DNA of 56,331 nucleotides from a virus. Below are positions 22,739-48,483 of the stretch, one piece after another. Where the stretch lies: positions 1 to 56,331 of IMG/VR virus record IMGVR_UViG_3300049048_000077, one strand, 5' to 3'. The notes under the pieces are model-generated. The model was not told the DNA's origin. It made no database searches and saw only the letters and a list, made by a program, of their open reading frames with translations. The position numbers were made by a program, and so were the translations under genes. The stretch's first letter is position 1; each line of letters starts with the position of its first letter.

Positions 22739-22782
22739 CCCCCCCAGTGGGGGTCGCACCAAAACTTTCGCCCCGGAACACT
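22739..22782 (+). promoter_or_regulatory. Late element 1 (before terminase genes)
   Basis: Box 1 is CCCCCCCAGTGGGGGTCGC (variant with a perfect C/G stem), box 2 is CGGAACACT at 22774-22782. Distance from the C of CAGT (22745) to box 2 is 29, as in every other copy. The small-terminase ATG lies 15 nt after the start of box 2. Confidence 0.7.
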
Positions 22783-22788
22783 CGGGGA

Positions 22789-23505
22789 ATGGTCAAACCC
22801 ACCGCGCAAGACAAAGCGCCACCCACCGCAACAATGCCTGCAGCCAAGAAGAAGGCTGCAAAATCAGCCGCGCCTGCAAAGCGCCGCACCGACTGGGAAG
22901 CGGTTGAAAGGGACTACCGCACAGGGAAATTCACCCTTCGTGAGCTGGAAGAGAAGCATGGTGCATTCAACAGCTCGATTGCACGCAAAGCGAAGAAAGA
23001 CGGCTGGACCCAAGACCTTTCCCGCGCCATTCAGCAGGCGACCAACGCAAAGCTGGCCGAGTCGCTGGTTAGCGAGCTTGCTAGCGAAGGTGCGCAAAAC
23101 GCTAGCGCCACAGTGCTTGCTGCTGCGGAGGTCAATAAACAGGTGATTTTGGGGCATCGAAAGGACGTCACAGCCACCAGGAACGTCGCCGCCGCCCTTT
23201 TGGAAGAGCTGAGCCGGTCAGCACTGCTAGCAGAGGAGCAGGAATTGCTAACCCAGGTGTTAGCAGGAAGCGGCGCAGAGCCTGCTGATGAAGCGCGGAT
23301 TCGGGCGGTGGTGCAGAAGGCGCTATCGCTGCCGAGCCGGGTGGGCAGCGTGAAGCAACTCGCAGACACCTTCGACAAGCTGCAGCTGGCAGAACGCCGG
23401 GCTTTTGGGTTGGACGACAAGACCGACAGACCAGAGAGCAGCCTGGCCGAGATGGCAACTGATGAACTCAAGCGCATGCGTGAGGAGCTGCGCAATGGGG
23501 GCTAG
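22789..23505 (+). CDS. terS: Terminase small subunit
   Basis: 238 aa from ATG 22789. After a Lys/Ala-rich N-terminus, RRTDWEAVERDYRTGKFTLR, ELEEKHGAFNSSIARKAKKD, GW is the DNA-binding helix-turn-helix of phage small terminases. A long helical middle (AESLVSELASEGAQNASATV) should build the oligomeric ring. It ends inside the large-subunit gene (11-bp overlap), supporting the assignment. It recognises the pac/cos site and recruits the large subunit. Confidence 0.82.
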   Translation: MVKPTAQDKAPPTATMPAAKKKAAKSAAPAKRRTDWEAVERDYRTGKFTLRELEEKHGAFNSSIARKAKKDGWTQDLSRAIQQATNAKLAESLVSELASEGAQNASATVLAAAEVNKQVILGHRKDVTATRNVAAALLEELSRSALLAEEQELLTQVLAGSGAEPADEARIRAVVQKALSLPSRVGSVKQLADTFDKLQLAERRAFGLDDKTDRPESSLAEMATDELKRMREELRNGG

Positions 23506-24223
23506 CCTCGACCCAATGCTGCGCGAGGCCATGCTTGCAGAGATCGACCGCGAGCTATCCCGCCGCAAGATCGACGAGATGTACCCCGAGACGGGGCAGC
23601 TGCGCCGTGAGCTTTACCCCAAGCACATGGAGTTCTTCAAGGCTGGCGCTGGCTACCGTGAGCGGTGCGCAATGGCTGCCAACCGTGTCGGGAAAACGGA
23701 AGGCATGGGCGGCTATGAGACAGCGCTGCACCTGACTGGGCGCTACCCGAATTGGTGGACAGGTCGCAGGTTCGAGCACCCTGTGCAGTTCTGGGCGGCT
23801 GGCAAGACCAACGAAACGACCCGCGACATCGTGCAGCGAAAGCTGTTTGGCCCAGTGCGTGGTGCTGGCCCAGAAAAGCACTTCGACGGCACAGGCCTGA
23901 TCTATGGCGACTCCATCGGCAAGATTGCATGGAAGCAGGGTGTATCCGATCTGGCCGACACTGTGCTGATTCAGCACGTTTCTGGCGGGTGGTCAGAACT
24001 TGGGCTCAAGTCCTACCAACAGGGGCGCGGGAGTTTTGAGGGCACCGAGCGGCACGGCATATGGCTTGACGAAGAGCCACCGCTGGAAATCTACAGCGAA
24101 TGCCTGATCCGCACGGCAACCACTGACGGCATCGTTTACATCACCTTCACCCCCTTGGAAGGCACCACCGGGACGGTGATGATGTTCCTGCAACCGGACA
24201 TTGGCCAAAAGGCGGTGCACTGA
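23495..24223 (+). CDS. terL: Terminase large subunit, ATPase part (split gene)
   Basis: 242 aa. Walker A ANRVGKTEG near residue 65, Walker B IWLDEEP near residue 190 and coupling motif TFTPLEG near residue 222 make a complete packaging ATPase domain. The frame then stops at TGA 24221-24223, where homologous terminases continue into the nuclease domain encoded by the next ORF in the -1 frame. Together the two parts give 495 aa, the normal full length. So this is either a real gene fission with stop/start coupling (TGATG), a frameshift product, or a base-call error (AAAA instead of AAAAA at 24207-24210). Confidence 0.85.
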   Translation: MGASLDPMLREAMLAEIDRELSRRKIDEMYPETGQLRRELYPKHMEFFKAGAGYRERCAMAANRVGKTEGMGGYETALHLTGRYPNWWTGRRFEHPVQFWAAGKTNETTRDIVQRKLFGPVRGAGPEKHFDGTGLIYGDSIGKIAWKQGVSDLADTVLIQHVSGGWSELGLKSYQQGRGSFEGTERHGIWLDEEPPLEIYSECLIRTATTDGIVYITFTPLEGTTGTVMMFLQPDIGQKAVH

Positions 24224-24984
24224 TGCCCGCAGTAACCGCCACCCGCTATCTGGTTACCGCAGGCTGGAACGACGTTCCACACCTGGACGAAAAGACAAAG
24301 CGCGAACTTTGGGATAGTTCGCCGCCGCACGAACGCGAAGCTCGGGCCAAGGGTATTCCATCGCTAGGGAGCGGGCGGATTTTCCCTGTGGAGGAAGACG
24401 CTATCAAGGTGACGCCGTTCGCCATGCCTGCGCATTGGCCGCGCATCAACGGCATTGACTTTGGCTGGGATCACCCCACGGCTGCAGTTCAACTAGCGTG
24501 GGACCGTGATGCTGATTGCATCTATGTGCACAAGGCGCACCGGATGCGCGAGGCAACACCTGTGATGCACGCGGCCACGATCAAGCCTTGGGGTGAGTGG
24601 GTGCCTACCGCCTGGCCGCATGACGGGTTGCAGCACGACAAGGGCAGCGGCGAGCAACTGGCAAAACAGTATGCGTCGGCTGGATTGCTGATGCTCAGGG
24701 ACCGTGCCACCTTCGAGGATGGGTCCAACGGCGTCGAGGCCGGGTTGATGGAAATGCTCGAAAGGATGCAGACCGGGCGATTCAAGGTCTTCTCAAACCT
24801 GGATGAATGGTTTGGCGAGTTTCGCTTGTACCACCGCAAAGACGGCAAGGTTGTGAAGGTGATGGACGACCTGCTGTCCGCCACCCGCTACGCCGTGATG
24901 ATGAAACGCAAGGCCAAGGTTCGCCCTGTGCAGACCGCTTCGCCTGCTGGCTGGGCTCCTTTGGACAGAGAAGTAGGGTACTGA
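24223..24984 (+). CDS. terL: Terminase large subunit, nuclease part (split gene)
   Basis: 253 aa. It begins exactly where the missing half of the large terminase should: TRYLVTAGWNDVPHLDEKTK matches the post-ATPase linker. INGIDFGWDHPTAAVQLAWD carries the first metal-binding Asp, and VVKVMDDLLSATRYAVMMKR the last acidic pair of the RNase H-like headful nuclease. Starts with ATG overlapping the ATPase stop as TGATG, so reinitiation could supply it separately. No Shine-Dalgarno is obvious. Confidence 0.85.
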   Translation: MPAVTATRYLVTAGWNDVPHLDEKTKRELWDSSPPHEREARAKGIPSLGSGRIFPVEEDAIKVTPFAMPAHWPRINGIDFGWDHPTAAVQLAWDRDADCIYVHKAHRMREATPVMHAATIKPWGEWVPTAWPHDGLQHDKGSGEQLAKQYASAGLLMLRDRATFEDGSNGVEAGLMEMLERMQTGRFKVFSNLDEWFGEFRLYHRKDGKVVKVMDDLLSATRYAVMMKRKAKVRPVQTASPAGWAPLDREVGY

Positions 24985-24985
24985 A

Positions 24986-27196
24986 ATGCACGCCACCGTA
25001 ATGCAAGGGGGCGGCATGCCCCAGGCCGAGTCCGTCGACAAGCCGATGCTCGATCTGCGCGCTGAGTTTGTCCAGACGCTTCTCACCAAGCGCCGGGAAG
25101 CCATCGCTGGCCGAGCTGGATCCGGAATCGAAGAGGAGTGGACTGAGGATGAAGAACACTACCAAGGCATTGATGATGCTAATAGGGCATTCCAGAACGC
25201 CAATCAGCTCTACCGCAGCCGCAAGTCCACGTTGATCGGCTCAGCAACGAAAGATCAAGGCCCGTCTCGCTCGGTTGTGTTCCTCAATATCACGCGGCCA
25301 TACGTGGACGCCGCTAGTGCACGGGTGGCGGACATGCTGTTGCCGACGGATGACCGGGCGTGGGAGATCAAGCCGACGCCACTGCCGCGTATGTCGGAGA
25401 GCCAGATCACCAAACTGGCGAGCGCGATGGGTTTGAGTGACCCCGCAGAGGTACAAGCTCAGCTTGAGCAACGCCAGGTACAGGCCCGAGCGGCCTCCGA
25501 GGGCATGCAGAAAGCTATCGAGGACCCGCTGGTTGAGAGCAACTGGCACGGCGAGGTACGCCATCTGATCGAAGACTCGGCTCGCATCGGTACAGGCGTT
25601 CTAAAGGGCCCGTTCCCGATTCAGCGCACCGCTCGTGTGACGCATAAGGACCCGACCAGCGGCATGACCGAGCTCGTCAAGGTCAGCGAAATCAAACCCG
25701 GCTCCAAGCGCATAGATTGCTGGAATTTCTTTCCCGACCCATCCTGCGGCGAGAACATTCACAACGGCAGCTACACCTTCGAGCGGGAGTTCATCGGCCG
25801 CCGTCAGATCAAGGAGATGCTGGCAGACGAAAGCTATGACCAGGGCGAACTGATCGCCGTCCTGCGCGAGGGACCGGCCCGCACCCGCGAAGGGACCGAA
25901 GCGGTCTACCGCGCCAGCGAAGATGAGTTTGAAATGTGGATCTTCTATGGCCACGCCGCCCGCGAGTATTTGGCACGCCTGGGCGTCGAGCTGGATGAGG
26001 GCGACGAAGACCGCATGCCCACCATGGCCGTGATGATCAATGACCGCCTGGTGAAGGCGGTGCTCAGCCCCCAAGAGGACGGACAGTTCCCGTATGACGT
26101 GCTGGCCTGGCAGCGGCGTCCAGGCATGCCCTGGGGAGTGGGCATCGCCCGCCAGATTCGGACGGCGCAGCGCATGCTCAATGGTGCGACGCGGGCCATG
26201 ATGGACAACAGTGGTCTTTCAGCCGCGCCGCAAATCGTTTTGGGCAACGGAGTGACACCCCAAGATGGCAATTTCGTAATGCGACCGGGAAAGATTTGGC
26301 GGGCTGAGGCAGCTGCCGACGTGCAAGACGTGCGGGCCGCTTTCAACGCCTTCGTTGTGCCCAGTGTTCAGAACGAGCTGATGAACATCATCAACTTCGC
26401 CATGAAGATGGCCGAGGACACCACCGGCATGCCCGCCATGTTGCAGGGGATTCGCGGCGATGCACCAAGCACCTTGGGCGGCATGCAGATGCAGAACAAC
26501 AACGCGACAAGCGTGCTGCGCCGCCTGGCCAAGCGGTTCGACGACTACATGACCCGCCCTCACATCCAGCGGTACTTTGACTGGATGATGGCTTACAGCG
26601 ACGACGAAACCATCAAGGGCGACTTCGAGATTGAAGTGCGTGCATCCTCCGCGCTGGTCGAGCGTGATGCCCAGCAGCAGTTCCTCATGCAAATGGTGGC
26701 GATGGCCAAGGACCCGGCCTACGAGGTTGACCCTGCCAAGGTCTTCGCGGAGCTGTGCAAGGGCCAGCGTCTGGACCCCAAGAACTTCCAGCTCACGGAA
26801 GAGCAGAAGGCACAACGCCAGCAGGTGGCACCAGACCCAGTTGCGGAGAACAAGGCAAAACTGCTGGATGCACAGACCAGCAAGGTCGCCGCAGAGACGC
26901 GCAAGGTCGAGTCGGACAGATCCAGCACGGACATGAAGACGCTGTACAGCGGCGTGCAAACCGCCCAGGTGCTTGCGACGGTGCCTGGTGTGGCGCCGCT
27001 TGCCGACGAACTGGCGAAGTCCGTTGGTGTAGAGGACCAGAACGGCGGCACGGTTGTCCCGCAGCTGGCAGAGGCTGCGATGACCCAGCCAGAACCGGTT
27101 GCCGTTGCTACCAGCACCGACCCACTCACCCCGACAAGTCCTGCGCTGGGGTTCCAAGACGGCATTGAGACGCCCGAAGCTGACGGCGTTCGGTGA
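24986..27196 (+). CDS. Portal protein
   Basis: 736 aa, the usual size for podovirus-type portals. Recognisable blocks: VVFLNITRPYVDAASARVAD, MLLPTDDRAWEIKPTPLP, KRIDCWNFFPDPSCGENIHN, LAWQRRPGMPWGVGIARQIR, TAQRMLNGATRAMMDNSGLS and NIINFAMKMAEDTTGMPAML. The C-terminal 100 residues are a helical barrel-like tail rich in Ala/Gln. It would form the dodecameric channel through which DNA is packaged and ejected. Starts one base after the terminase stop. Confidence 0.9.
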   Translation: MHATVMQGGGMPQAESVDKPMLDLRAEFVQTLLTKRREAIAGRAGSGIEEEWTEDEEHYQGIDDANRAFQNANQLYRSRKSTLIGSATKDQGPSRSVVFLNITRPYVDAASARVADMLLPTDDRAWEIKPTPLPRMSESQITKLASAMGLSDPAEVQAQLEQRQVQARAASEGMQKAIEDPLVESNWHGEVRHLIEDSARIGTGVLKGPFPIQRTARVTHKDPTSGMTELVKVSEIKPGSKRIDCWNFFPDPSCGENIHNGSYTFEREFIGRRQIKEMLADESYDQGELIAVLREGPARTREGTEAVYRASEDEFEMWIFYGHAAREYLARLGVELDEGDEDRMPTMAVMINDRLVKAVLSPQEDGQFPYDVLAWQRRPGMPWGVGIARQIRTAQRMLNGATRAMMDNSGLSAAPQIVLGNGVTPQDGNFVMRPGKIWRAEAAADVQDVRAAFNAFVVPSVQNELMNIINFAMKMAEDTTGMPAMLQGIRGDAPSTLGGMQMQNNNATSVLRRLAKRFDDYMTRPHIQRYFDWMMAYSDDETIKGDFEIEVRASSALVERDAQQQFLMQMVAMAKDPAYEVDPAKVFAELCKGQRLDPKNFQLTEEQKAQRQQVAPDPVAENKAKLLDAQTSKVAAETRKVESDRSSTDMKTLYSGVQTAQVLATVPGVAPLADELAKSVGVEDQNGGTVVPQLAEAAMTQPEPVAVATSTDPLTPTSPALGFQDGIETPEADGVR

Positions 27197-27199
27197 GTG

Positions 27200-27242
27200 C
27201 CCCCCAGTAGGGTTCGCGCTGGAGGGCATGGCTCGGAACACT
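27200..27242 (+). promoter_or_regulatory. Late element 2 (before head-assembly genes)
   Basis: C-run plus CAGTAGGGTTCGC (27205-27217) and CGGAACACT (27234-27242), 29-nt start-to-start distance. The ATG of the 69-aa gene lies 16 nt after the start of box 2. The 43 bp between and around the boxes are almost identical to element 5. Confidence 0.75.
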
Positions 27243-27249
27243 CCGGGTC

Positions 27250-27459
27250 ATGAAGGGCATCGAGATCAATTCCCCCACGTGGCGCGCTGTGAGTGAGCAC
27301 GCTCAAACGCAGATCGCCACGCTGCGAGAGAAGAACGACAGCCCGTCAATGGACGCGATCCGCACTGCTGAAACACGTGGGCGGATTGCTGCATGGAAAG
27401 AACTGCTGGCGCTGGTCAAACCAGCCCCGGCGCCAACCGCCGACGTTGGTGGCTACTGA
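27250..27459 (+). CDS. Small head-region protein, 69 aa
   Basis: Starts directly after late element 2 with no room for a Shine-Dalgarno on a 16-nt-or-shorter leader. Product KGIEINSPTWRAVSEHAQTQ, IATLREKNDSPSMDAIRTAE, TRGRIAAWKELLALVKPAPA is helical and resembles small proteins found between portal and scaffold genes. Possibly an assembly helper; unknown. Confidence 0.75.
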   Translation: MKGIEINSPTWRAVSEHAQTQIATLREKNDSPSMDAIRTAETRGRIAAWKELLALVKPAPAPTADVGGY

Positions 27460-27489
27460 CCTCGGCACGACAACAGGAGTGCATGACGC

Positions 27490-28416
27490 ATGAACGTACG
27501 CGAGCAGGAACAGGCAGAAGAGCAAGCAGCCTTCGAGCAAGCCTTCGCAAGCGCAACCGGAGCAGAGCTTCCCGAGCCCACTGCAGCATCGAACGATGTT
27601 GCGGCCGGCAATGAAGTGATTGCCGGGGGCGCGAACGAGGGCAGCAACGAATCTGCAGCCCAGGCTCAAGCGCCAGACGCCAGCGATGCAGCACAAGGCA
27701 GTCCCGGGGACGGAACCTCGGCGGGCGAGAAGCCCGCTGGCGAACCTCCCGCCGAGGAAGACCCAGTGCTGCTCGATGGCCTCAAGCGCAGCGAGCTACG
27801 CCGCCTGCTCGGGAATGCGGCAGATGTGGAGAGCTTGAAAAAGCAGCTCGACAAGGCCCACGGCAGCATTGGCGATCTGAACCGCCGTTTCCAGCAGGTC
27901 CAGGCCGCAGCTAAACCTGCAGCCGAGGTGCCTGCCGAGATTCTGCAGTTTGAGCAGCTTTATCCCGAGTTTGCCGCGTACGTGAAAGCGCATGGAACCG
28001 TCCCCCAGCAATCCCAGGAAGCTCCACCAGCGGACCCCATGCAGACCGTGGCCACGGATGCAGGTGTTCCAGCGCAGGCCGAGCCCGACCCTACGGTGAT
28101 TGAACTGGCGGTTATGGACCGCATGCACAAAGGCTGGCGCGAAAAGATCGCGTCGCCCGACTTCAAGGTATGGCTGACGGGACAGCCCGACGACGTGCGC
28201 AGCACCTTCGAAACCACCACGGTGGCCGATGAGCTGAGCGCTGTTGTGGGCAAGTTCGACGCATGGAGCACAGCGCGCGAGTCGCGCCAGACCCACGGCC
28301 GCAGCCGCCTTGAACGGGCGATGACGCCGTCAGGGAACGCACCACGTCCCCAGGCCGCGCCAACCGAAGACGACGCATTTCGCGCCGCTTTCAACGCACA
28401 AATGGGCAAACGCTGA
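27490..28416 (+). CDS. Scaffolding-like protein
   Basis: 308 aa directly upstream of the major capsid gene. Very acidic and Ala-rich N-terminus (MNVREQEQAEEQAAFEQAFA), a coiled-coil middle (NAADVESLKKQLDKAHGSIG, DLNRRFQQVQAAAKPAAEVP) and a basic C-terminus (ESRQTHGRSRLERAMTPSGN), the typical build of capsid scaffolds, whose basic tail contacts the coat protein. Assignment rests on composition and position. Confidence 0.75.
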   Translation: MNVREQEQAEEQAAFEQAFASATGAELPEPTAASNDVAAGNEVIAGGANEGSNESAAQAQAPDASDAAQGSPGDGTSAGEKPAGEPPAEEDPVLLDGLKRSELRRLLGNAADVESLKKQLDKAHGSIGDLNRRFQQVQAAAKPAAEVPAEILQFEQLYPEFAAYVKAHGTVPQQSQEAPPADPMQTVATDAGVPAQAEPDPTVIELAVMDRMHKGWREKIASPDFKVWLTGQPDDVRSTFETTTVADELSAVVGKFDAWSTARESRQTHGRSRLERAMTPSGNAPRPQAAPTEDDAFRAAFNAQMGKR

Positions 28417-28439
28417 ACGCGCGCCCGAAGGAGTAGAAG

Positions 28440-29483
28440 ATGTCTCAGTTCACCAGCGCCAATCCCGCAGCTCGTATCGGCAAACTCAAGGGTGAGATCC
28501 TCGCCCACGCCGTCCCATGCGAAGTCCTGGGCATGACCGGCCAGCAACGCGGCATGGCAAAAAATATGGGCAAGACCATCGTGCACCGCCGTTACCTGCC
28601 CTACGGTGCGGCGGCCACCAACTACAACACGATCAATCGCCCCGCGGCTGATCCTGCAGCGCACGAGCTGACCGAAGGTGTCACGCCATCGGCCGACACC
28701 CTCGTTCCGCAGGACATCACCGTGACCCTGAAGCAGTACGGTTGCTTGTACCAGCTGACGGATCAAGTCGCCGACACCTACGAAGACGACGTCCCAGCGG
28801 AGATGAAGAAGCACTGTGGCGAGCGCATCGCCCTAGTGCGCGAAATGATCCGCTACGGCGTGCTGAAGGCGTGCACGAACGTGTACTACGGCGGTGGCGG
28901 ATCGACCCGTGCAAGCGTGAACGCCAAGATCACGCTTAATCTGCTGCGTAAGGTGAGCCGCAACCTGCAGGCCAACCACGCCAAGCGCATCACGGGCATC
29001 CTGGCGCCGTCGGTGGACATTTCGACCCAGCCGGTGGAAGCCGCCTACATCGTGTTCGTTCACACCGACGCCGAGGCTGACGTGCGCGACCTGGCGGGGT
29101 TCAAGCACATCTCCGAGTACGGCACTCGCAAGCCTGTGAGCCCGTACGAGATCGGAAGCGTCGAAAACTTCCGGTTCGTGACGTCACCAGAACTGGCTCC
29201 GTACCTGGCCGCTGGCGCAGCCGTGGGTGCCACTGGTCTTTCCAGCGCTGGCGGCGTGAACGTGGACGTGTACCCGTTCATCATGGTTGGTGAGGACGCC
29301 TGGGGTCAGCACGCTTTGCGCGGCGCTGATTCTATTGACCCGACCTACATCCCGACTGGCCAGAAAGACAAGAGCGACCCTCTGGGCCAACGTGGCTACG
29401 TGGGCGCCAAGTTCTACATGGCCTGCACCATGCTCAACGAGGGCTGGATGGCTGTGGCAGAAGCCGGAGTCTCGTCGCTGTAA
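28440..29483 (+). CDS. Major capsid protein, N4-gp56 family
   Basis: 347 aa. LPYGAAATNYNTINRPAADP, LTEGVTPSADTLVPQDITVT, LKQYGCLYQLTDQVADTYED, and later HISEYGTRKPVSPYEIGSVE, NFRFVTSPELAPYLAAGAAV, DVYPFIMVGEDAWGQHALRG are hallmark blocks of the N4-gp56 HK97-fold coat family. GAAGGAG precedes ATG 28440. The following hairpin suggests the message end is protected, consistent with the most abundant structural protein. Confidence 0.92.
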   Translation: MSQFTSANPAARIGKLKGEILAHAVPCEVLGMTGQQRGMAKNMGKTIVHRRYLPYGAAATNYNTINRPAADPAAHELTEGVTPSADTLVPQDITVTLKQYGCLYQLTDQVADTYEDDVPAEMKKHCGERIALVREMIRYGVLKACTNVYYGGGGSTRASVNAKITLNLLRKVSRNLQANHAKRITGILAPSVDISTQPVEAAYIVFVHTDAEADVRDLAGFKHISEYGTRKPVSPYEIGSVENFRFVTSPELAPYLAAGAAVGATGLSSAGGVNVDVYPFIMVGEDAWGQHALRGADSIDPTYIPTGQKDKSDPLGQRGYVGAKFYMACTMLNEGWMAVAEAGVSSL

Positions 29484-29495
29484 GGCAGCGCAGGT

Positions 29496-29511
29496 GAGGG
29501 CTTCGGCCCTC
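29496..29511 (+). terminator. Hairpin after the major capsid gene
   Basis: GAGGGC-TTCG-GCCCTC, a very stable tetraloop stem without a U-tract. It probably stabilises the capsid mRNA end or acts as partial attenuator rather than a strong terminator. Confidence 0.55.
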
Positions 29512-29546
29512 TCCGCACTTTAACCACCAAATTCAAGGAGCCCATC

Positions 29547-29915
29547 ATGGCCGACAACACTGCGGGCCAGACCCGCACCAACTCCGACAAGTCTGACTCG
29601 CCCAGCGCCGCACAAGGCAAGGTGATTTACGACGCGACAGCAATTGTCGCCACTGACTCAACTCGCGTGGATACGGGCTTCAAGCCACGCTACGTGCGCT
29701 GGGTGAACCTCACCGATCGCGTTGAGATCGAGTGGTTCGAAGGCATGGATGCAAACACGTGCTTGAAAACAGTCGCGGCAGGCACGCGCACGCTGGAGAC
29801 CAGCGGAGGTAACGGCGGTATCACTGTCGACGAGCGCGGCTTCCGCGTGCTCCAAAACGCCACGCTGGCTGCGATCCTGGCCTCGAAGACTTGCGTCTAC
29901 GAAGCTCGCGGTTAA
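29547..29915 (+). CDS. Head decoration-like or minor structural protein, 122 aa
   Basis: Polar flexible N-terminus (DNTAGQTRTNSDKSDSPSAA), then beta-rich GKVIYDATAIVATDSTRVDT, GFKPRYVRWVNLTDRVEIEW, FEGMDANTCLKTVAAGTRTL. The location right after the capsid gene and the size suggest a decoration or head-stabilising protein. No definite family. Confidence 0.65.
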   Translation: MADNTAGQTRTNSDKSDSPSAAQGKVIYDATAIVATDSTRVDTGFKPRYVRWVNLTDRVEIEWFEGMDANTCLKTVAAGTRTLETSGGNGGITVDERGFRVLQNATLAAILASKTCVYEARG

Positions 29916-29924
29916 GCCACCCCC

Positions 29925-29949
29925 GCGCCCCAGCATCTCGCTGGGGTGC
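29925..29949 (+). other. Hairpin with possible degenerate late element
   Basis: GCCCCAGC and GCTGGGGT (loop ATCTC) form a strong stem. CAG at 29931 is 29 nt before GAGAACACT at 29960, the spacing of the six late elements, but the rest of box 1 is absent. The ATG of the next gene follows at 29973. Confidence 0.3.
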
Positions 29950-29972
29950 CCCTCAATTGGAGAACACTGAAC

Positions 29973-30419
29973 ATGACCCGCAAGACTGCACTTGAAGCAA
30001 GCAACGAGTATCTGGGTGCCGAAAACAAGATGGAATTCGGCGTGGTTCCACAGTTCACCGCTGAGGATATCCAGAACCCCGTGACACTCAAGGATGCGGA
30101 ACTCGACGCCTTCATGAATGAACCCGTCATGGTGACCGTGCTTTCGGGGGGCAAGGAAAACGAGGCCCCGTACGTTCAGGTTGCGGTTAACGGTGTGACA
30201 CAGATGTTCCGCCGCGATGTCCCTATCGTGGTGAAGCGCAAATATGTTGAGCGCCTGGCTCGGGCCAAAGAAACCGGCTATGACCAGGAGCTTGATGACA
30301 GGCTCGGTGAGCGTATGAACATGCTCCAGCAAACCAAGAGCTTGCGCTATCCCTTCAGCGTCAACCGGGACGACAATCCCCGCGGCTCCGCATGGCTGCG
30401 CGCCGTGCTGGCCTCCTGA
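29973..30419 (+). CDS. Structural-region hypothetical protein, 148 aa
   Basis: ATG 29973 is preferred to the longer frame from 29946. Sequence has AEDIQNPVTLKDAELDAFMN, VNGVTQMFRRDVPIVVKRKY, VERLARAKETGYDQELDDRL: a mixed fold with basic strand MFRRDVPIVVKRKYVERL. Located between the capsid and adaptor genes, so likely virion- or assembly-related; no known family. Confidence 0.65.
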   Translation: MTRKTALEASNEYLGAENKMEFGVVPQFTAEDIQNPVTLKDAELDAFMNEPVMVTVLSGGKENEAPYVQVAVNGVTQMFRRDVPIVVKRKYVERLARAKETGYDQELDDRLGERMNMLQQTKSLRYPFSVNRDDNPRGSAWLRAVLAS

Positions 30420-30431
30420 TCGGACTAGTCA

Positions 30432-31115: not shown

Positions 31116-31157
31116 CCCCCAGTAGGGTTAGACGACCCCGTTCCGTACGGGAAAACT
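31116..31157 (+). promoter_or_regulatory. Late element 3 (before ejection-protein genes, degenerate box 2)
   Basis: CCCCCAGTAGGGTTAG with CAGTAGGG starting at 31120; box 2 at 31149 reads GGGAAAACT (7 of 9 matching), again 29 nt away. The next ATG is at 31184, so this copy has a leader of about 20 nt. Confidence 0.65.
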
Positions 31158-31183
31158 GCCTGCATTGATCCGAAAGGCCATCC

Positions 31184-33529
31184 ATGCAAGGCTTCCAGTC
31201 CCTGGCAGCGCGCGGGCTCGCGCAAGCAGCACAACACCCACAGCACCTCGCCGACGGCGGCCAAGTAGGCTTCGGCGCCCGAGGGCTCGCTGGCCTACGC
31301 GACCTAGTCCCCAAGATGGCCGCCATGGGCTACCCCCAGGCCGCGCCAGCAGCTGCTCCGGCTGTAGCTGCGGCGCCCGCAATCGACCCCCGCGCCGCCC
31401 AACTGCAAGCCATGATCCCTCGGATGGAGGCCATGGGCTACAAGCAGCAACCCCAGTACCTTGCCAAAGGTGGGTTGGTACGAGGTCCAGGTACTGGCAC
31501 AAGCGACAGCATTGAGACTGAAGCCGAGCCCGGCACGTTCATCATGCCCGCAGACAGCACCAAGGCTATCGGCCAAAGCGCGCTGCAGAAAATGGGCACC
31601 GTGCCCGTACGTCTGTCGAACGGCGAGTTCGAAGTTCCGCCCGAGCAAGTCATGGCTATCGGCGCGGCTGTGCTCAAGTTGCTCAAGGACACGACGCACA
31701 CGCCTGTGAACGGGGAAGATGGCGGCCAGACCGACGCCGAGGTAGCCCAGCTCACGGCGGAGATGCCTGAACAGCAGTTTGCCGACGGCGGCCTGATCGA
31801 GAACGATGTCACCCGCGTGGGCAACAGCTACAGCGGCGGCAACGTTGGCGGCAGCATCACGGTGAACGGCGACGCGCCTGCCGGGACCTTCAGCGAGAAC
31901 CCGGCGAGCCGTATGGCTGCAGCACCGACCGCTCCGCGCCCCACGACAACTGCCGTTTCCATGATCCGCGGCACCCCCAGCACCGGCACTTCAGATACTC
32001 CGGTGCCTGCTCCAGCACAGGCCGCTGCCCCCATGGGTTGGCAGGCCCGCCAGGATCAGCGCAATCTGGAAGTCACGGCCAGCTCAATCATCGACAGCCC
32101 TGAGCGGCGCGCGGCGCAGCAGCGGCTCGGAACTTTGCCTGCGACTGGCGTCGCGCCTCGCCGTTATGCGGACGGTGGAACCGTGGAGGATGACCTGCAG
32201 AAGCGTCTGATGCAGATCCCATCAAGCGCTCCTGCCGGATGGACTGGCGGCGGAGCGGCTGGTGGCCGCGGTGGTGCGACTGGCAGTTGGGAGACACCGG
32301 CGCCGATTCCAGCGCCAGCGCCAGCCCCGACACAACCTGCGGGCGCGTTGAGCCGCGCGGCCGCCATGTCGACCCCCGCACCTGCAGTACAGGCCCTCAG
32401 CGCAGTCCAGAGCACTCCAAACGGCGGAGAGGTCACATCACAGAACATGGAAGCCGCGCAGAGCTTGGTGCGCCGTGGTGCTGCAGACGCCATGGCCGCC
32501 ATGCCAAGCGCGCAGCAGCCTGTTCAGGTTCCAACTGTGTTGTCCAGCGAGAACAGTTGGCAGAAGCGGAACGACTTGCGCAATGCGCTCGTGTCCGCAT
32601 CCTCGATCACGAACAACGGCGGAAAATGGGACCGGCACAAGGGCGAATCACCAGAGTCGCTGACCTACCGCGCAATGCTGGCAACGGATCAAGGTCTTCA
32701 GAGCAGCGCGCCCGGACTGGCCCAGCAGGCCATGCGGGAGACTGGCGACACCCAGCGCGCGGGATTGCAGGTCTCCGCCAGCAGTGCGAACGCCGCCGCA
32801 GAGCGCATGGGGGCCATGGACCGCACACTGGTGACCGAGCGGGGCAACAACACGCGGGCGGGTATCTCGGCGCAGGCCGCGACCGAAGCAGCGCGATTGA
32901 AGGCCCAGCAGGAGAACAAGCCGCCTGCGGGCTATCGTTGGGCCGAAGGCGGGACAAAGCTCGAACCGATCCCGGGCGGACCTGCAGGCGACGGAAAACC
33001 CTTGACCGAAGATCAAGCCAAGTCGGCAGGCTATGCCCTGCGCATGGACAACGCGCTGAAGCTGATTGACGAAGTAGGCAAGAAGGATCCCAGTGCCATC
33101 CGCCCAGGCCTGATCACATCGGCCATCAACACGCTGCCGGAACCTGCAGCAAATGCACTGCGGTCGACCGGGCGCCAGCGTGTCGAAGCCGCGCAACTGG
33201 ATGCGCTGGACGCAGCACTGACCCTGAACACCGGCGCGGCCTACACACGCGAGCAGCTCCAGGGCCTGAGCAAGTCCTACTTTGCCCAGCCCAACGACGA
33301 CGATGCGACGGTGGCCGACAAGGCAAATCGCCTGCAGAGCTTGATCGAGACGGCCAGGGTGCGCGCGGGAGAAAAAGGGGTCGCGATGACGGACGCAGCG
33401 CAGGCCAAGAACGCCGACCGCGCGGCGGCCTCACCCCCGGCGGCCATGCCCCCGCAGATTGCCGAACTCCAGCGCCGCGCCGCCTCCAACCCAGCGCTGG
33501 CCGCACGTCTGAAAGAGATGGGGTATTGA
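31184..33529 (+). CDS. Internal virion/ejection-type structural protein, 781 aa
   Basis: A long Ala/Pro/Gly-rich protein with repeated motifs: DGG-containing loops at LADGGQVGF, LAKGGLVRG, FADGGLIEN and YADGGTVED; PKMAAMGY and PRMEAMGY; and two copies of a helix ending with ASSI (DQRNLEVTASSI, DLRNALVSASSI). GTFIMPADSTKAIGQ and VRLSNGEFEVPPEQV form a conserved-looking folded part. C-terminal 130 residues are helical. Such proteins lie in the capsid core or are ejected with DNA. Directly followed by the 707-aa gene after one base. Confidence 0.7.
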   Translation: MQGFQSLAARGLAQAAQHPQHLADGGQVGFGARGLAGLRDLVPKMAAMGYPQAAPAAAPAVAAAPAIDPRAAQLQAMIPRMEAMGYKQQPQYLAKGGLVRGPGTGTSDSIETEAEPGTFIMPADSTKAIGQSALQKMGTVPVRLSNGEFEVPPEQVMAIGAAVLKLLKDTTHTPVNGEDGGQTDAEVAQLTAEMPEQQFADGGLIENDVTRVGNSYSGGNVGGSITVNGDAPAGTFSENPASRMAAAPTAPRPTTTAVSMIRGTPSTGTSDTPVPAPAQAAAPMGWQARQDQRNLEVTASSIIDSPERRAAQQRLGTLPATGVAPRRYADGGTVEDDLQKRLMQIPSSAPAGWTGGGAAGGRGGATGSWETPAPIPAPAPAPTQPAGALSRAAAMSTPAPAVQALSAVQSTPNGGEVTSQNMEAAQSLVRRGAADAMAAMPSAQQPVQVPTVLSSENSWQKRNDLRNALVSASSITNNGGKWDRHKGESPESLTYRAMLATDQGLQSSAPGLAQQAMRETGDTQRAGLQVSASSANAAAERMGAMDRTLVTERGNNTRAGISAQAATEAARLKAQQENKPPAGYRWAEGGTKLEPIPGGPAGDGKPLTEDQAKSAGYALRMDNALKLIDEVGKKDPSAIRPGLITSAINTLPEPAANALRSTGRQRVEAAQLDALDAALTLNTGAAYTREQLQGLSKSYFAQPNDDDATVADKANRLQSLIETARVRAGEKGVAMTDAAQAKNADRAAASPPAAMPPQIAELQRRAASNPALAARLKEMGY

Positions 33530-35655: not shown

Positions 35656-35913
35656 CTACTTCTTCCCGGCTCTGGAAATCTCAACGATGGCGTACAGCAG
35701 GACCCCCGCGGCAACGGCCCAGCCGAGGGCGGGGACTGCAACGCACAGGTAGGTGATTGCTCCAATGACGGCGACCACCAAGGCAAGCTTGGCAATGCCC
35801 TTCAGGAGTCCAAACCAGAAGCCGAAGAATTCGGCGTCGTGATTGCGGCCGTGCAATAGATCATCGCTCTCCGCGAGGGTCATGGGCTTCTTGATGTGAT
35901 CGAACTGGGCCAT
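35656..35913 (-). CDS. Two-pass membrane protein, lysogeny moron candidate, 85 aa
   Basis: On the opposite strand to all surrounding late genes. From ATG 35913: an amphipathic start MAQFDHIKKPMTLAESDDLL, then LKGIAKLALVVAVIGAITYL and LGWAVAAGVLLYAIVEISRA, two membrane helices. A -10-like TACAGT lies exactly six bases before the ATG and a -35-like TTGCTT 16 bases further, so it could be transcribed from its own promoter as a leaderless message in lysogens. An exclusion function is inferred, not shown. Confidence 0.7.
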   Translation of the reverse strand: MAQFDHIKKPMTLAESDDLLHGRNHDAEFFGFWFGLLKGIAKLALVVAVIGAITYLCVAVPALGWAVAAGVLLYAIVEISRAGKK

Positions 35914-35919
35914 GGGCGC

Positions 35920-35947
35920 ACTGTAGCAGGCGCCGCTCAGAAAGCAA
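35920..35947 (-). promoter_or_regulatory. Promoter of the minus-strand membrane moron
   Basis: Minus strand -35 TTGCTT (35942-35947), 16-nt spacer, -10 TACAGT (35920-35925), six bases, ATG. Same -10-to-ATG geometry as PRM and PR. Confidence 0.5.
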
Positions 35948-35974
35948 AAGGCCTGATTCGGCGGGCATTTTGAG

Positions 35975-36017
35975 CCCCCCAGTAGGGTTCGCCCAATACG
36001 CCATCCCTCGGAACACT
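35975..36017 (+). promoter_or_regulatory. Late element 4 (before tail genes)
   Basis: CAGTAGGGTTCGC starts at 35980 after a C-run; CGGAACACT at 36009-36017, 29 nt away. The first ATG is at 36048 behind a CAGGAG, so this transcript has a normal leader. Confidence 0.75.
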
Positions 36018-36047
36018 GCCAGGCAATCACCTCGCAGGAGTTACCGA

Positions 36048-36848
36048 ATGCCCAACACCGCATACCCGCTCGGCGCGCAGAAAATTCTGAGCGGGAGCGT
36101 CAATTTCGCATCCGACACCATCAAGATGGCGCTGCTGCCGTCTTCCTATACCTTCAGCGCGGCGCACGAGTTCCTTTCGGCGCTCGGCTCGCGGATCGGT
36201 ACTGACCAAACCCTTGCAAACAAGTCAGTGGCTGGAGGCGTTCTGGATGGTGACGACTTGGACTATGGTGCTCTTGCCCCCGGCAGCACGGTCAAGGCCC
36301 TTGTGGTCTACAAAGACACTGGCAACTCGGCAACGTCACCCGTCCTGTTTTACTTCGACGTCATCACGGGCTTCCCATTCGCGACGAATGGAGGCGCTCT
36401 CACCGTTCCTTGGGGCAACGATGCGAAGAAGATCGCCCGGCTCGGCTTGCCGTTCTTTCCCCTGGGCGCCGAAAAGGTTTTTTCGGGAGCGATCAACTTC
36501 CTTGCCGATACGATCAAGGTGGCCCTGCTGCCCGCTGCGTATGTCTACGACGAGGCCCACGAGTTTCTGGATGACGTCGGCTCAATCATCGGCACAGCCC
36601 AGACGCTAGGCACCAAGACCGTCATTGGTGGCGTGTTCGATGCAGCCGATGCGTCTTTTGGCGCCCTGGGCGGTGGTTCCGACATCGGCTCGCTCCTGAT
36701 CTACAAGGACACGGGGACCGCGGGTACCTCTCCTGTGCTGCTGCACATCACCGACTCGGTGACGCTGCCGCTGCCCACCAACGGCTCCGCGGTTTCGCAC
36801 CAGTGGTCCAACGGCTCAGCCAAGATCTTCAGCTTGATCCCAGCCTGA
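36048..36848 (+). CDS. Tandem-duplicated structural protein, 266 aa
   Basis: ATG 36048 after CAGGAG. The protein is two copies of the same domain of about 130 residues: YPLGAQKILSGSVNFASDTI, then FPLGAEKVFSGAINFLADTI; IKMALLPSSYTFSAAHEFLS and IKVALLPAAYVYDEAHEFLD; LVVYKDTGNSATSPVLFYFD and LLIYKDTGTAGTSPVLLHIT. Each copy is probably one beta-sandwich. It opens the tail gene cluster, so a tail or baseplate protein is likely. Confidence 0.78.
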   Translation: MPNTAYPLGAQKILSGSVNFASDTIKMALLPSSYTFSAAHEFLSALGSRIGTDQTLANKSVAGGVLDGDDLDYGALAPGSTVKALVVYKDTGNSATSPVLFYFDVITGFPFATNGGALTVPWGNDAKKIARLGLPFFPLGAEKVFSGAINFLADTIKVALLPAAYVYDEAHEFLDDVGSIIGTAQTLGTKTVIGGVFDAADASFGALGGGSDIGSLLIYKDTGTAGTSPVLLHITDSVTLPLPTNGSAVSHQWSNGSAKIFSLIPA

Positions 36849-41794: not shown

Positions 41795-42228
41795 ACACCA
41801 TTGTTTGCAACACCCTCTCCGGCGCCGTGTCCGAGTACACCCGGCACGAATTCCAGAGCGTAACGCCCACGCATGGCGGGTCGGCAACGGGGCTCTATGC
41901 CTTCGGAGGCGACACCGACAACGGCCTGCCCATCGTGGCAACGCTGAAGCTGCCGCCCACGCTTCGCGAGAACACGCTGAAGACCCACATCGAGATGGTC
42001 TATCTGTCGATGCAAGGCAAGGGCTGCGCGGTCTTTACGGTCTTCGGCAATCACCAGAACTGGAACTACTCCTTCCCGTTGCGCGGATCGGGGCAGACAC
42101 GCTGCCCAGTGGGGCGGGGTATCCGGGAGAACTACATGGGCTTCGGCCTGAGCACCCCAGCGGGGCAGCAATTCGCGCTGGACCGCGTTGAAGTGCTGAC
42201 CATTAAATCGAAGACGCGAAGGATCTGA
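41791..42228 (+). CDS. Tail-region hypothetical protein, 145 aa
   Basis: ATGA overlap with the previous gene. NTIVCNTLSGAVSEYTRHEF, QSVTPTHGGSATGLYAFGGD, TDNGLPIVATLKLPPTLREN is compact and beta-rich, ending with LSTPAGQQFALDRVEVLTIK. Similar short proteins precede the coiled-coil tail protein in related phages. Unknown function. Confidence 0.65.
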   Translation: MNTIVCNTLSGAVSEYTRHEFQSVTPTHGGSATGLYAFGGDTDNGLPIVATLKLPPTLRENTLKTHIEMVYLSMQGKGCAVFTVFGNHQNWNYSFPLRGSGQTRCPVGRGIRENYMGFGLSTPAGQQFALDRVEVLTIKSKTRRI

Positions 42229-42230
42229 CC

Positions 42231-44033
42231 ATGGCAGACGTCACTCAAAGTGCGGCGGAAATCGTCAACGACAAATACGACCGGTCGATTGACCTTGCAG
42301 ATGCCGCCACAGAGGCGGTCGAAGGATTTCAAGAGGCCCTGAACAACAGCATCTACCAGCCGCCAACGGTCAGCGTGCGGTGGCAGACGCTGGCCGCGCC
42401 CAACTTGCCTCCCATCCCCGACATGCCGGAGCTTCCGGACGTCGACCTCGTGATCCCCGGAGGGATGCCCACGGCCTTGATGGATTCGATCGGCAGTGTG
42501 CAAATCGACGACTTCGACGTTCAGGCGCCCGACCTCAACTTTGGACTGCCGCCGCTGCTTTCGATTGGCGACGTGCCAACGCTGCCGGAGGTCCGCGACG
42601 TGGCCATCCCGGATGCGCCCGACATCACCTTGCCGGACGTGCCCTCGTTCCTGCCATTGCAGACCCACGAGTTCGGCGGAATCAACCTGCGCGAAGACTG
42701 GTTGTCGAAGCTGGACGAGATCCCTGAGCTCTCAGTCCTGCAGCCGGCGCCATTTGCCTACTCGCAGGGAGCGCGGTACGCAAGCCAGCTGATGGACAAC
42801 CTCAAGGCCCAGCTCAACGCACGCATCCACGGCGGTACCGGCCTTAACCCTGCCGTTGAGCAGGCCATCTGGGACCGCTCGCGCGACCGCGAGACTCAGA
42901 TCGCACTGGCGCGCGAGCAAGAGGTCTTGCGCGGCTCTGAAGCGCTGGGCTTCGATCTGCCGTCCGGCGTCCTTGCCGGTCAGTTGCAGGACGCCCGACG
43001 CGAATACCACGACAAGCTGTCCGGGCTGTCACGCGATATCGCCATCAAGCAGGCAGAGCTCGAGCAAGCAAACCTGCAACAAGCCACTACTCTGGCGCTG
43101 CAGCTGGAATCGACGCTGCTGGAGGACGCCTACAAACTCGAAGTGCTGGCCGTGGACATCGCCAAAACGGCGGCCGACAACGCGCTGGCGGCCTACAACT
43201 CGGCGCTCGAGCACTACAAGGCATTGCTGGCGGGATACCAAGCCTACGCTGGCGCATACCAGACCGTGGTTCAGGCTGAACTCAACAAGGTTGAAGTGTT
43301 CAAGGCATTGCTCGCGGCGGAAGAGACCAAGGCCAACATCAATCGGAATCTCGTCGAGCGCTACAAGGCTGAAATAGACGGCCGCATGGCGGTGGTGCAG
43401 ATCTACCAAGCCCGGGTCGGCGCAGCGAAAACACTGGTGGAGCTGGAGGGCACGCGCATCCAAGCGGGTGCGGAACAGGTCAAAGCATTCGTAGCGACTG
43501 TGAATGCTGAAACGGCGAAGTCGGAGTTGTACAAGGCGACGGTCGCTGCCGAAGGCACTAAGGTGGAAGCATTCTCTGCGCTGACGCGGGCCTACGGCTC
43601 CAAAGTGGGCGCCCAAGCCGAGAAGGCGCGCGTGGAGATCGCCAAGTTGCAGACCAAGATCGCGGCGAAAGGCTTGGAGTGGGATGGCTGGGGCAAACAG
43701 CTGGCCGCCGCATCTGCTCAGGTGGAGGCCGCTGCGCGCAAAAGCAGCATCATTGTTGACGGGTACCGCATAGGGGCCACTGCCGCCGAAGCGCAGGCAG
43801 GTTCGTACATGCGGCGTTGGGAAGCTGATATTCGACAGTACGAGGCAGGTACAAACGCAACCCTGCAAGCGGCCAAAGTCAACGCCGACGCAGTCATGCA
43901 CACCAACGATGCCCGCATGGAGGCCGCGAAGGTGGGGCTCACAACGTCCTCGCAGCGCCTGGCCAGCGCATGGGCCATGGTCAGCGCCAATGCGTCGATC
44001 AGCGGAAGCGCGTCGCTCAGTCAGACACTTTGA
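42231..44033 (+). CDS. Long coiled-coil tail protein, 600 aa
   Basis: The first 190 residues are Pro-rich with P-L-P-[DE] steps (PNLPPIPDMPELPDVDLVIP). The remaining 400 are one almost uninterrupted helical region, e.g. LSRDIAIKQAELEQANLQQA, VVQAELNKVEVFKALLAAEE, AEQVKAFVATVNAETAKSEL, with heptad periodicity. Could be a needle or fibrous tail component. It ends just before late element 5. Confidence 0.72.
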   Translation: MADVTQSAAEIVNDKYDRSIDLADAATEAVEGFQEALNNSIYQPPTVSVRWQTLAAPNLPPIPDMPELPDVDLVIPGGMPTALMDSIGSVQIDDFDVQAPDLNFGLPPLLSIGDVPTLPEVRDVAIPDAPDITLPDVPSFLPLQTHEFGGINLREDWLSKLDEIPELSVLQPAPFAYSQGARYASQLMDNLKAQLNARIHGGTGLNPAVEQAIWDRSRDRETQIALAREQEVLRGSEALGFDLPSGVLAGQLQDARREYHDKLSGLSRDIAIKQAELEQANLQQATTLALQLESTLLEDAYKLEVLAVDIAKTAADNALAAYNSALEHYKALLAGYQAYAGAYQTVVQAELNKVEVFKALLAAEETKANINRNLVERYKAEIDGRMAVVQIYQARVGAAKTLVELEGTRIQAGAEQVKAFVATVNAETAKSELYKATVAAEGTKVEAFSALTRAYGSKVGAQAEKARVEIAKLQTKIAAKGLEWDGWGKQLAAASAQVEAAARKSSIIVDGYRIGATAAEAQAGSYMRRWEADIRQYEAGTNATLQAAKVNADAVMHTNDARMEAAKVGLTTSSQRLASAWAMVSANASISGSASLSQTL

Positions 44034-44045
44034 GCGCCTGAGCGG

Positions 44046-44087
44046 CCCCCAGTAGGGTTCGCGCGAGAGGGCATGGCTCGGAACACT
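44046..44087 (+). promoter_or_regulatory. Late element 5 (before fibre genes)
   Basis: CAGTAGGGTTCGC from 44050, CGGAACACT at 44079-44087 (29 nt), ATG at 44095 (16 nt after box 2 starts). The 50 bp around it repeat element 2 almost exactly, including the 17 bases between boxes. Confidence 0.78.
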
Positions 44088-44094
44088 CCGGGTC

Positions 44095-44528
44095 ATGACC
44101 ATCACACCGGCCAGCCTGTCACTGCCCATCGTCCAGGGTGCCACCTTCGACGAGGCCCTGCAGCGCAGCTTCTTCCCGTACGACACCGCTTGGGTCTGCG
44201 GAGTGCTCGTCCGCGCAGACACGGGCGCGCCAGTCAACGAGGCTGATCGCGTGGCAGAGGACTACACCGGCTGCACCGCAGAACTGCAGTTGCGCCACCC
44301 CGAGACGAATGCGCTCATCAAGACGCTCAGCACGGCCAACTCCGGGATCGTGCTGGACGCTGACACGCTGAGGCTGTTCATCAGCCACACCGATACGGCG
44401 GCCTTCGCATACGGCGAAACGGCGCCTGCCTGGACGTATGCCTTTGGACACGTGGAAGTCACGCGCCCCGATGGCACGCGCGAGCGCCAGTACTCGATCA
44501 CCTTCCCACTGAACCCGGAGCTGACGGT

Positions 44529-44532
<4 letters not shown>
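44095..44532 (+). CDS. Small tail protein upstream of the fibre, 145 aa
   Basis: Begins immediately after late element 5, on a leader too short for a ribosome-binding site. [40 protein letters not shown] and [40 protein letters not shown] match the common small BppU-like/baseplate N-terminal protein pattern (transfer of a polar beta-sandwich). Stop and fibre start overlap. Confidence 0.7.
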
Positions 44533-46834
<2,302 letters not shown>

Positions 46835-46838
<4 letters not shown>

Positions 46839-47410
46839 GCGACACCTACCAACTCACAGGCGAAGGCTACGTCATCCGCAACGGCGAGACGAAGGTGCCG
46901 ACCATGGACGCACCAGGCTTGGGGCCGCACCCAGAGACCCTGGCCTACCGCGCCTGGATGGCTGCAGGTGGCGTACCGCTGCCAGCCGAGCTGCCGCCCA
47001 TCGAGCAGCGCCGCGCCGAAGTGTGGGAGGCCATCAAAACCGAGCGCGACCGCCGCGCGGCCATGGGTGTGAAAGTCGGTGCCCACTGGTACCACAGCGA
47101 CCAGAAAAGCCGCACGCAGCAACTCGGCCTTGTGATGCTGGGCCAGAACATTCCGGCGGGGCTGCAATGGAAAACGCTGAGCTATTCGCCCAACCCGGTG
47201 TTTGTCACGATGACGCCCGCCCTCGCGCAAGGGATCGTGATGAGCACGGCCGCCAGCGACACCGCCATCTTCACGGCCGCCGAGGTGCACCGCATGACCA
47301 TGGAGGCCAGCGCGGCCCCGCAGGACTACAACTTTTCCGCGGGCTGGCCCGTGTCCATTGAAGAGGAGGCGAACGATGCGGGCATCCAGTTCAACAGCGA
47401 CGCGGCTTAG
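46835..47410 (+). CDS. Tail-fibre assembly/accessory protein (DUF4376-like)
   Basis: 191 aa, ATGA overlap with the fibre gene. The N-terminus is a beta domain ([20 protein letters not shown]) and residues 65-190 ([60 protein letters not shown]) are the helical DUF4376 domain of fibre-assembly proteins, which fold or attach the trimeric fibre. Confidence 0.8.
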
Positions 47411-47729
47411 GAACGTGTGGGCACTGGTCCTGGCGTACGGGCAGCAGGTCTTCCTTGCTTTGGACCAGCTGGCCAATGCCCTGATCCCGCCTCTCGACGG
47501 CACGGTCAGCTTTGCCGACGAAACCCTCAGCGCCCGGTGCTACCGCGCCCACCGCGACGGCAAGTTGTTTGGGCGGTTGTTCATGCCGTCGATCGATTGG
47601 GTGTTCGGGCTGTGGCAGGGCCCAAACCACTGCCGCAATGCCTACGTCAAAGAGTTCGAGCGCAAGAACTACCCGAGCGAATACCACCCGCCCAACGAGC
47701 CGCGGTTCACTTCGCGCAGCGCGAAATGA
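47376..47729 (+). CDS. Conserved phage protein, 117 aa
   Basis: Overlaps the end of the previous gene; ATG 47376 has GAGGAGG upstream and is preferred. VWALVLAYGQQVFLALDQLA, NALIPPLDGTVSFADETLSA, RCYRAHRDGKLFGRLFMPSI, then HCRNAYVKEFERKNYPSEYH is a strikingly conserved-looking sequence common in phages of beta- and gammaproteobacteria. Its function is not known to me; position near fibre and lysis genes. Confidence 0.75.
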   Translation: MRASSSTATRLRNVWALVLAYGQQVFLALDQLANALIPPLDGTVSFADETLSARCYRAHRDGKLFGRLFMPSIDWVFGLWQGPNHCRNAYVKEFERKNYPSEYHPPNEPRFTSRSAK

Positions 47730-48385
47730 ACATCATCCAGTACCTACTCGCCGCGGACGTGCCCGTTGAGCTGGAGCAGGCCGCCGTGGCGTGTCTGCTT
47801 GATGCACAGGAGCGCGCCAGCGGGCTCACCTGGGTCAAGTGGAAGGTTCGCCTGTTCCGCGCGGGCAAGATCGCCAAGTTGCTCGCTTGGGCCGACGAAC
47901 GCCTGATCGACGTGCGTCCGGACCTCGCCGACTGGGACATCGCCCCCATGGTGAACATCACGGCCCACGGTGACAACGTGCCGTGGGGAGCAGACGGCCC
48001 TATGCGAGGCGCTTGGTTGCAGGACACCGCCGAGGCGCGCGCCGCCAACTACTGGTGCAAGGGCGAACACCCCCGCAGCAAGAAGTCGCGCAAGGTTTGG
48101 TACCGACGCAATGCTGGCGAGTACCGCGCCTGGCGCCTCGGCCGCCGCGTGGCCCCTGGCGCTACTCGGGTGTGGAGCGCCAACGGTGTCACCGTGCGGG
48201 AGAACAGCGGTGCATGGCAGATCGTGGCAACGGGCAAGTGGCTCGGCTTCATCCCCGTTCGCGTTCGCATCGGGTACGAAATCGACAACGCGGTGCGAGA
48301 TGACGGCACTCAGCTCTGGTATCCGATTCCCGGTGCGGAACTGCGCGCGCCCATCACTTGGTCGGTATTGCCAGCCCGAGGATAG
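47726..48385 (+). CDS. Late hypothetical protein, 219 aa
   Basis: ATGA overlap fixes the start at 47726. NIIQYLLAADVPVELEQAAV is an N-terminal helical segment; WKVRLFRAGKIAKLLAWADE and ANYWCKGEHPRSKKSRKVWY, RRNAGEYRAWRLGRRVAPGA are basic blocks that could bind nucleic acid or membrane phosphates. Ends directly before late element 6. Unknown function. Confidence 0.65.
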   Translation: MNIIQYLLAADVPVELEQAAVACLLDAQERASGLTWVKWKVRLFRAGKIAKLLAWADERLIDVRPDLADWDIAPMVNITAHGDNVPWGADGPMRGAWLQDTAEARAANYWCKGEHPRSKKSRKVWYRRNAGEYRAWRLGRRVAPGATRVWSANGVTVRENSGAWQIVATGKWLGFIPVRVRIGYEIDNAVRDDGTQLWYPIPGAELRAPITWSVLPARG

Positions 48386-48428
48386 CCCCCCAGTAGGGTT
48401 CGCGGGTGCCGGCCGGTGCCGGAACACT
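48386..48428 (+). promoter_or_regulatory. Late element 6 (before lysis genes)
   Basis: CAGTAGGGTTCGC from 48391, CGGAACACT at 48420-48428 (29 nt), ATG of a short ORF at 48436 (16 nt after box 2 starts). Confidence 0.78.
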
Positions 48429-48435
48429 GCAGGGC

Positions 48436-48483
48436 ATGAATCAAGAATGCCACCCCCTGCAGGCTGATGGAGCGCGACAGTGA
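48436..48483 (+). CDS. Leader peptide of 15 aa before the holin
   Basis: ATG 16 nt after the start of late box 2 opens a 15-codon frame (MNQECHPLQADGARQ) whose TGA overlaps the holin ATG as TGATG. It could couple holin translation to a ribosome that loads on the short late leader. No other role visible. Confidence 0.5.
   Translation: MNQECHPLQADGARQ

Follow-up and report, generated by a model that had tools for sequence, protein, structure and literature searches.

What switches on the late genes of the virus in IMG/VR record IMGVR_UViG_3300049048_000077? The record, analysed here over its full length of 56,331 nucleotides (nt; hereafter the window), carries six copies of a two-box element, each preceding a different late module: the small terminase; a gene of 69 amino acids (aa) and the head genes; a 781-aa ejection-type protein; a 266-aa tail-region protein; a 145-aa gene and the fibre; and lysis. 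The initial annotation took these copies for late promoters in which box 2 is the −10 element and box 1 replaces the −35. This is the best-supported reading of the sequence data, through the conservation of A−11 and T−7, the distance to the ATG and the recurrence of the element in phages. The elements are probably sigma-70 phage late promoters with box 1 as an activator site, and the activator would most likely be a protein of family phrog_8117.

All six pairs of box positions reported earlier are correct, and box 1 and box 2 are separated, start to start, by 29 nt in every copy (6/6). Both boxes are exact in copies 2, 4, 5 and 6. Copy 1 has two mismatches in box 1 (CAGTGGGGGTCGC), and copy 3 has two in box 1 (CAGTAGGGTTAGA) and two in box 2 (GGGAAAACT at 31149). 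Elements 2 and 5, previously described as near-identical, share 93% identity over 60 nt. The statement that the copies avoid structural genes also holds for the + strand; copy 4 does overlap an antisense open reading frame in its longest form (ORF; 35656-36063), although an internal ATG of this ORF at 35913 would make the copy intergenic.

Single boxes, with mismatches allowed, match the window at close to chance level, but the pair at fixed spacing stands above chance, because a two-box matrix recovers exactly these six sites, all of them on the + strand, and nothing on the − strand. Their scores are 32.7-41.3, whereas no score above 15.1 occurs in 20 Markov copies of the window; these sites made up part of the matrix's training set. 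The elements are as follows.

Element 1, 22741-22782, + strand: box 1 at 22741-22757; −10 AACACT at 22777-22782; small-terminase ATG at 22789 (+1).
Element 2, 27201-27242, + strand: box 1 at 27201-27217; −10 AACACT at 27237-27242; ATG of the 69-aa gene at 27250 (+2).
Element 3 (degenerate), 31116-31157, + strand: box 1 at 31116-31132; −10 AAAACT at 31152-31157; predicted +1 at 31164.
Downstream of element 3, + strand: a 20-nt leader with AAAGG, then ATG at 31184 (781-aa protein).
Element 4, 35976-36017, + strand: box 1 at 35976-35992; −10 AACACT at 36012-36017; predicted +1 near 36024.
Downstream of element 4, + strand: a short leader with AGGAG, then ATG at 36048 (266 aa).
Element 5, 44046-44087, + strand: box 1 at 44046-44062; −10 AACACT at 44082-44087; ATG of the 145-aa gene at 44095 (+2).
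Element 6, 48387-48428, + strand: box 1 at 48387-48403; −10 AACACT at 48423-48428; ATG at 48436 (+2) of a 15-codon ORF.

Does box 2 have the properties of a −10 element? Relatives were gathered through exact box 1, the capsid protein and the two-box pattern, and box 1 was the sole criterion for picking sites in 21 phages (the window, 19 further phage contigs and a prophage contig of Acidovorax facilis), oriented by their late genes. This gave 101 sites on the late strand, 61 of them non-redundant, and 13 on the other strand. Downstream of box 1, the strongest conservation falls on column 36 (A in 56/61) and column 40 (T in 57/61). These two bases lie four positions apart and are therefore read as A−11 and T−7, the two rule positions of sigma-70 −10 elements. 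The −10 takes the form xAxxxT with CGG directly 5′ of it, and the bases between A−11 and T−7 vary (AACACT, AATCAT, CACGAT, AAAACT, GAGACT, AACAAT).

Counted from T−7, box 1 (CCCC-NNTA-GGGTTCG) extends from about −48 to −33, with CCCC at −47 to −44, GGG at −39 to −37 and TTCG at −36 to −33. A good −35 is absent from the elements, the region being poor (TTCG-like). From promoter anatomy, the centre of box 1 near −42 would correspond to the position of a class II activator.

The distance to the start codon is equally restricted. Among the 55 elements having both A−11 and T−7, an ATG lies 7, 8 or 9 nt past T−7 in 36 (11, 17 and 8, respectively), and in none at 5, 6 or 10-16 nt. The remaining elements mostly have an ATG 23-37 nt away, usually preceded by a Shine-Dalgarno-like sequence. 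If transcription starts 7 nt after T−7, this phasing places the ATG at +1 to +3, and most of these late promoters should therefore yield leaderless mRNAs, a feature that had been missed in the initial annotation. In the window, elements 1, 2 and 5 are predicted to be leaderless for the small terminase, the 69-aa and the 145-aa proteins, and elements 3 and 4 to have short leaders. The 15-codon ORF behind element 6 (48436-48483, MNQECHPLQADGARQ) is likewise predicted to be leaderless; its stop codon overlaps the next start at 48483 as TGATG, which suggests translational coupling into the lysis region.

How far does this architecture extend? It was found again in independent phages, always in late-gene orientation: F116, 8P, Acidovorax AP1, Shewanella Y11 and Pseudoalteromonas Y7 carry three to five elements each, in the late region and on one strand only. 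The element is also present in two Burkholderiales genomes and an Acinetobacter phage-plasmid found through the phrog_8117 protein, and the exact box 1 core occurs five times in the 6.4-Mb genome of Acidovorax facilis, all on the prophage contig; in strain DSM 649 this contig has seven elements. Over 39 non-redundant independent sites, T−7 sits at the expected spacing in 31 and within 1 nt of it in 37, with no box 1 on the other strand; the 29-nt geometry, put forward as invariant, is thus the rule in relatives without being absolute. In F116 (NC_006552, 22776-23666) the element predicts a small-terminase start at 22776; the annotated start, 22851, lies 25 codons further downstream, and the stretch between the two is in frame and free of stops.

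The capsid protein of the window belongs to the N4-gp56 type. In four phages whose capsids are related and in which tblastn did not find phrog_8117 (OR779980, MW202426, Rollin and StenR_269, the scan covering parts of the last two), there is no convincing element and none that is gene-oriented with a −10; nor does the Massilia plasmid NZ_CP024609, with a related capsid and phrog_8117 likewise not found by tblastn, show a convincing element. A near-identity search of phage records with the late region returned no match.

Which protein could recognise box 1? A candidate gene that co-occurs with the element, also missed earlier, lies only a few genes before element 1.

Candidate late activator, phrog_8117, 20588-21103, + strand: 171 aa; predicted N-terminal winged helix, beta strands, a long helix and C-terminal QLDLL.

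The ORF spans 20552-21103, with its likely start at 20588, and matches phrog_8117, a family annotated as of unknown function. In an unbiased comparison of the window's ORFs, it was found in 19 of 20 other genomes, the sole absence being a 30-kb fragment, and its distribution across these related genomes is broader than that of the terminase, portal or capsid. Among annotated phages, members of the family are encoded by F116-like Pseudomonas phages, 8P, Acidovorax AP1, Shewanella Y11 and Pseudoalteromonas Y7; in F116 the gene is number 37. Contigs picked by the phrog_8117 protein alone, outside the matrix training, carry the element downstream on the + strand in 33 of 33 cases, with 61 hits on the + strand versus 1 on the − strand. 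In the reverse direction, large contigs located by the exact DNA pattern encode phrog_8117.

AlphaFold modelling of phrog_8117 gave a winged helix (pLDDT > 90 in the core) together with beta strands and a long helix. The closest folds to this winged helix in the PDB are the DNA-binding domains of DtxR/IdeR, MarR-type proteins and the C-terminal part of CRP, with Z of about 9-10; in the model, this likeness is informative on fold, not on function. Foldseek returned no PDB or viral match at E < 0.001, only the common winged helix. No Pfam family covers phrog_8117: the best weak matches are to generic helix-turn-helix (HTH) families, and none is to the Ogr/Delta or Mor/C families. Covariation of the recognition helix with box 1 was looked for as well, but the result was too noisy for use. 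Homologues of the protein in two phage records (BK061585, BK061591) bear an AbiEi antitoxin label.

The elements, their spacing, the conserved A−11 and T−7, the phasing of the ATG and the co-occurrence with phrog_8117 are all read directly from the sequences, and from them we infer promoter activity, sigma-70 use, binding of box 1 by phrog_8117 and positive rather than negative control. Under this scheme, the main sigma-70 RNA polymerase of the host would use each element, with box 2 as the −10 and box 1 as an activator site in class II position, in place of the −35. The phrog_8117 protein (20588-21103), made during early expression, would bind box 1 and recruit polymerase to all late operons at once. 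Transcription would start about 7 nt after T−7. In most copies this position coincides with the A of the start codon or lies immediately before it, which would give leaderless messages; in the others the gene begins 20-30 nt further on and has a Shine-Dalgarno sequence of its own.

Several observations weigh against this proposal. The phages are related, and the co-occurrence of protein and element is therefore partly common descent and inflated. The structural family phrog_399 is equally widespread in the main set, although control phages, too, have genes annotated as head-tail adaptors. No function is annotated for phrog_8117, and the matrix drew in training on part of the data that it scores. 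The gonococcal prophage of the NgoPhi2 region, with a truncated phrog_8117 homologue, is an exception in having no clear element; NGO1101 of NgoPhi2 has been listed as F116p37-like (PMC1931599), and the NgoPhi regions are mostly silent by RNA-seq (PMC4176332). Finally, the term activator is based on the position of the site and the weak −35 region, and phrog_8117 could instead repress.

This last point leads to the best-surviving rival, to which we give a slim chance: box 1 would be an operator where phrog_8117, or some other protein of the phage, keeps the late genes repressed in the lysogen, at promoters in need of no activator. A repressor could equally recognise a box overlapping the −35, and the sign of control is not readable from sequence; however, the poor, TTCG-like −35 region and the class II position of box 1 point towards activation, and the window has a separate HTH repressor-like gene at 13356-13913.

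The strict two-box geometry would also suit a special sigma factor or a phage RNA polymerase, with box 1 as its −35 and box 2 as its −10. GGAAC in box 2, moreover, resembles the −35 of extracytoplasmic function (ECF) sigma factors. Both versions appear very improbable. Sigma70_r4 had no match in the window and, among 15 relatives, one match over the cut-off and four marginal ones; no T7-type RNA polymerase was matched, in a search run without a ringing control. The variable bases between A−11 and T−7 argue against an ECF −35. GGAA varies whereas A−11 and T−7 are constant, and an ECF −10 would land inside genes.

Slightly less probable again is a reading of the boxes as signals of translation initiation or of RNA close to start codons, comparable to the start-associated sequences (SAS/ESAS) of cluster K mycobacteriophages. 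Many copies do stand 7-9 nt before an ATG, and SAS are likewise repeats in one orientation upstream of starts. Yet 19 of the 55 elements have no ATG at that distance, mostly having their own Shine-Dalgarno sequence instead, and the positions that stay constant correspond to a −10 element, the variation between them being a further argument against an RNA motif. Complementarity around box 2 is not above chance (a dyad centred on the −10 reaches at least five pairs in 6 of 36 leaderless copies, overall not above a column-shuffle control; p 0.21), and the elements match no Rfam family. Packaging, recombination or RNA-processing sites, which the placement of the repeats between modules and the near-identity of elements 2 and 5 might suggest, can practically be set aside given one element per operon start, the fixed orientation, the −10 conservation and the start-codon phasing.

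If phrog_8117 is the late activator, might it also contact the replication machinery? A strict Q[LM]xL[LIMF] peptide near the C-terminus is found in 14 of 28 non-redundant homologues (QLDLL, QMDLL, QMSLI), against a background of 12 in 1073 late-strand ORFs of at least 150 aa, or about 1%, a background that itself includes the activators. The bacterial clamp-binding consensus is QL(S/D)LF (PMC9690074). By analogy, these proteins could bind the beta sliding clamp of the host through the QLDLL-type peptide and so couple late transcription of temperate phages to replication, in the manner of T4 except that the activator would be site-specific and the messages leaderless; we consider this extension speculative and rather unlikely. 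Several homologues without the peptide still have the promoters, so that promoter use does not require it, and the peptide may have nothing to do with the clamp. Other homologues have EIPFL or EMPFA at the C-terminus, which looks more like the tail of SSB than like a clamp peptide.

Elsewhere in the window, the large terminase (23405-24984) appears as two adjacent ORFs, ATPase-like (272 aa) and nuclease-like (253 aa), with an ATGA-type overlap, and in several relatives the two halves likewise match as separate neighbouring stretches; this is either a split TerL or a frameshift. The ends of the record (1-170 and 56162-56331) form a 170-nt terminal direct repeat with 98% identity, which may represent an assembly overlap, terminal redundancy or att repeats; the record is classed as linear. 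A weak Rfam tRNA match at 12170-12273 (− strand), just above the gathering score (29.4 bits, E 0.041), was not called by ARAGORN. An RNA ligase domain protein (PF09414) is encoded at 2878-3483 (− strand), in the early region near the integrase.

Taken together, the promoters and a named candidate activator make up a testable circuit of late-gene control for a widespread group of temperate phages that includes the classic transducing phage F116. A mostly leaderless late regulon, if true, would be unusual in Proteobacteria, and would raise the question of how late proteins reach high levels without leaders. Gene starts can also be corrected with the element, which serves as well as a marker of this phage group in metagenomes. 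Late promoters are not mentioned in the papers on phiC725A and Y11, and a search of an open library of papers for F116 late promoters and leaderless phage late genes found nothing relevant.

Among known systems, the closest logic is that of Ogr in P2/186 and C in phage Mu, where one phage activator turns on several late operons through a site that replaces the −35, with the sigma-70 polymerase of the host. In the present elements, too, several late operons are preceded by one shared site that stands where a −35 would be. They differ in box sequence, position and leaderless starts, and the candidate activator is a predicted winged helix with no match to the Pfam families of those proteins.

The late promoters of T4, served by gp55, gp33 and the sliding clamp gp45, share a −10-type box without a −35. 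T4 gp55 has a conserved short C-terminal clamp-binding segment behind a variable linker (PMC2988020), and half of the phrog_8117 homologues end in a QL[SD]LF-like peptide. The late promoters of T4 have no upstream activator box, whereas box 1, the putative activator site, is present here, and no sigma-like protein was found in the window.

The SAS/ESAS of cluster K mycobacteriophages are oriented intergenic repeats just upstream of starts, some with an upstream partner element (PMC3203893). Our elements are also oriented, intergenic and in many cases just before start codons, but have a fixed spacing, −10 features in the downstream box and 19 of 55 copies that are not beside a start codon, and they differ in sequence from the SAS, a 13-bp GGGATAGGAGCCC immediately upstream of starts.

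Also close are the F116-like phages (Hollowayvirus) and the proposed Ranviridae group. ORF41 of Y11, a core gene of that group (PMC10846135), is, by its numbering, probably the phrog_8117 protein, and F116, 8P and Shewanella Y11 have both the protein and the element.

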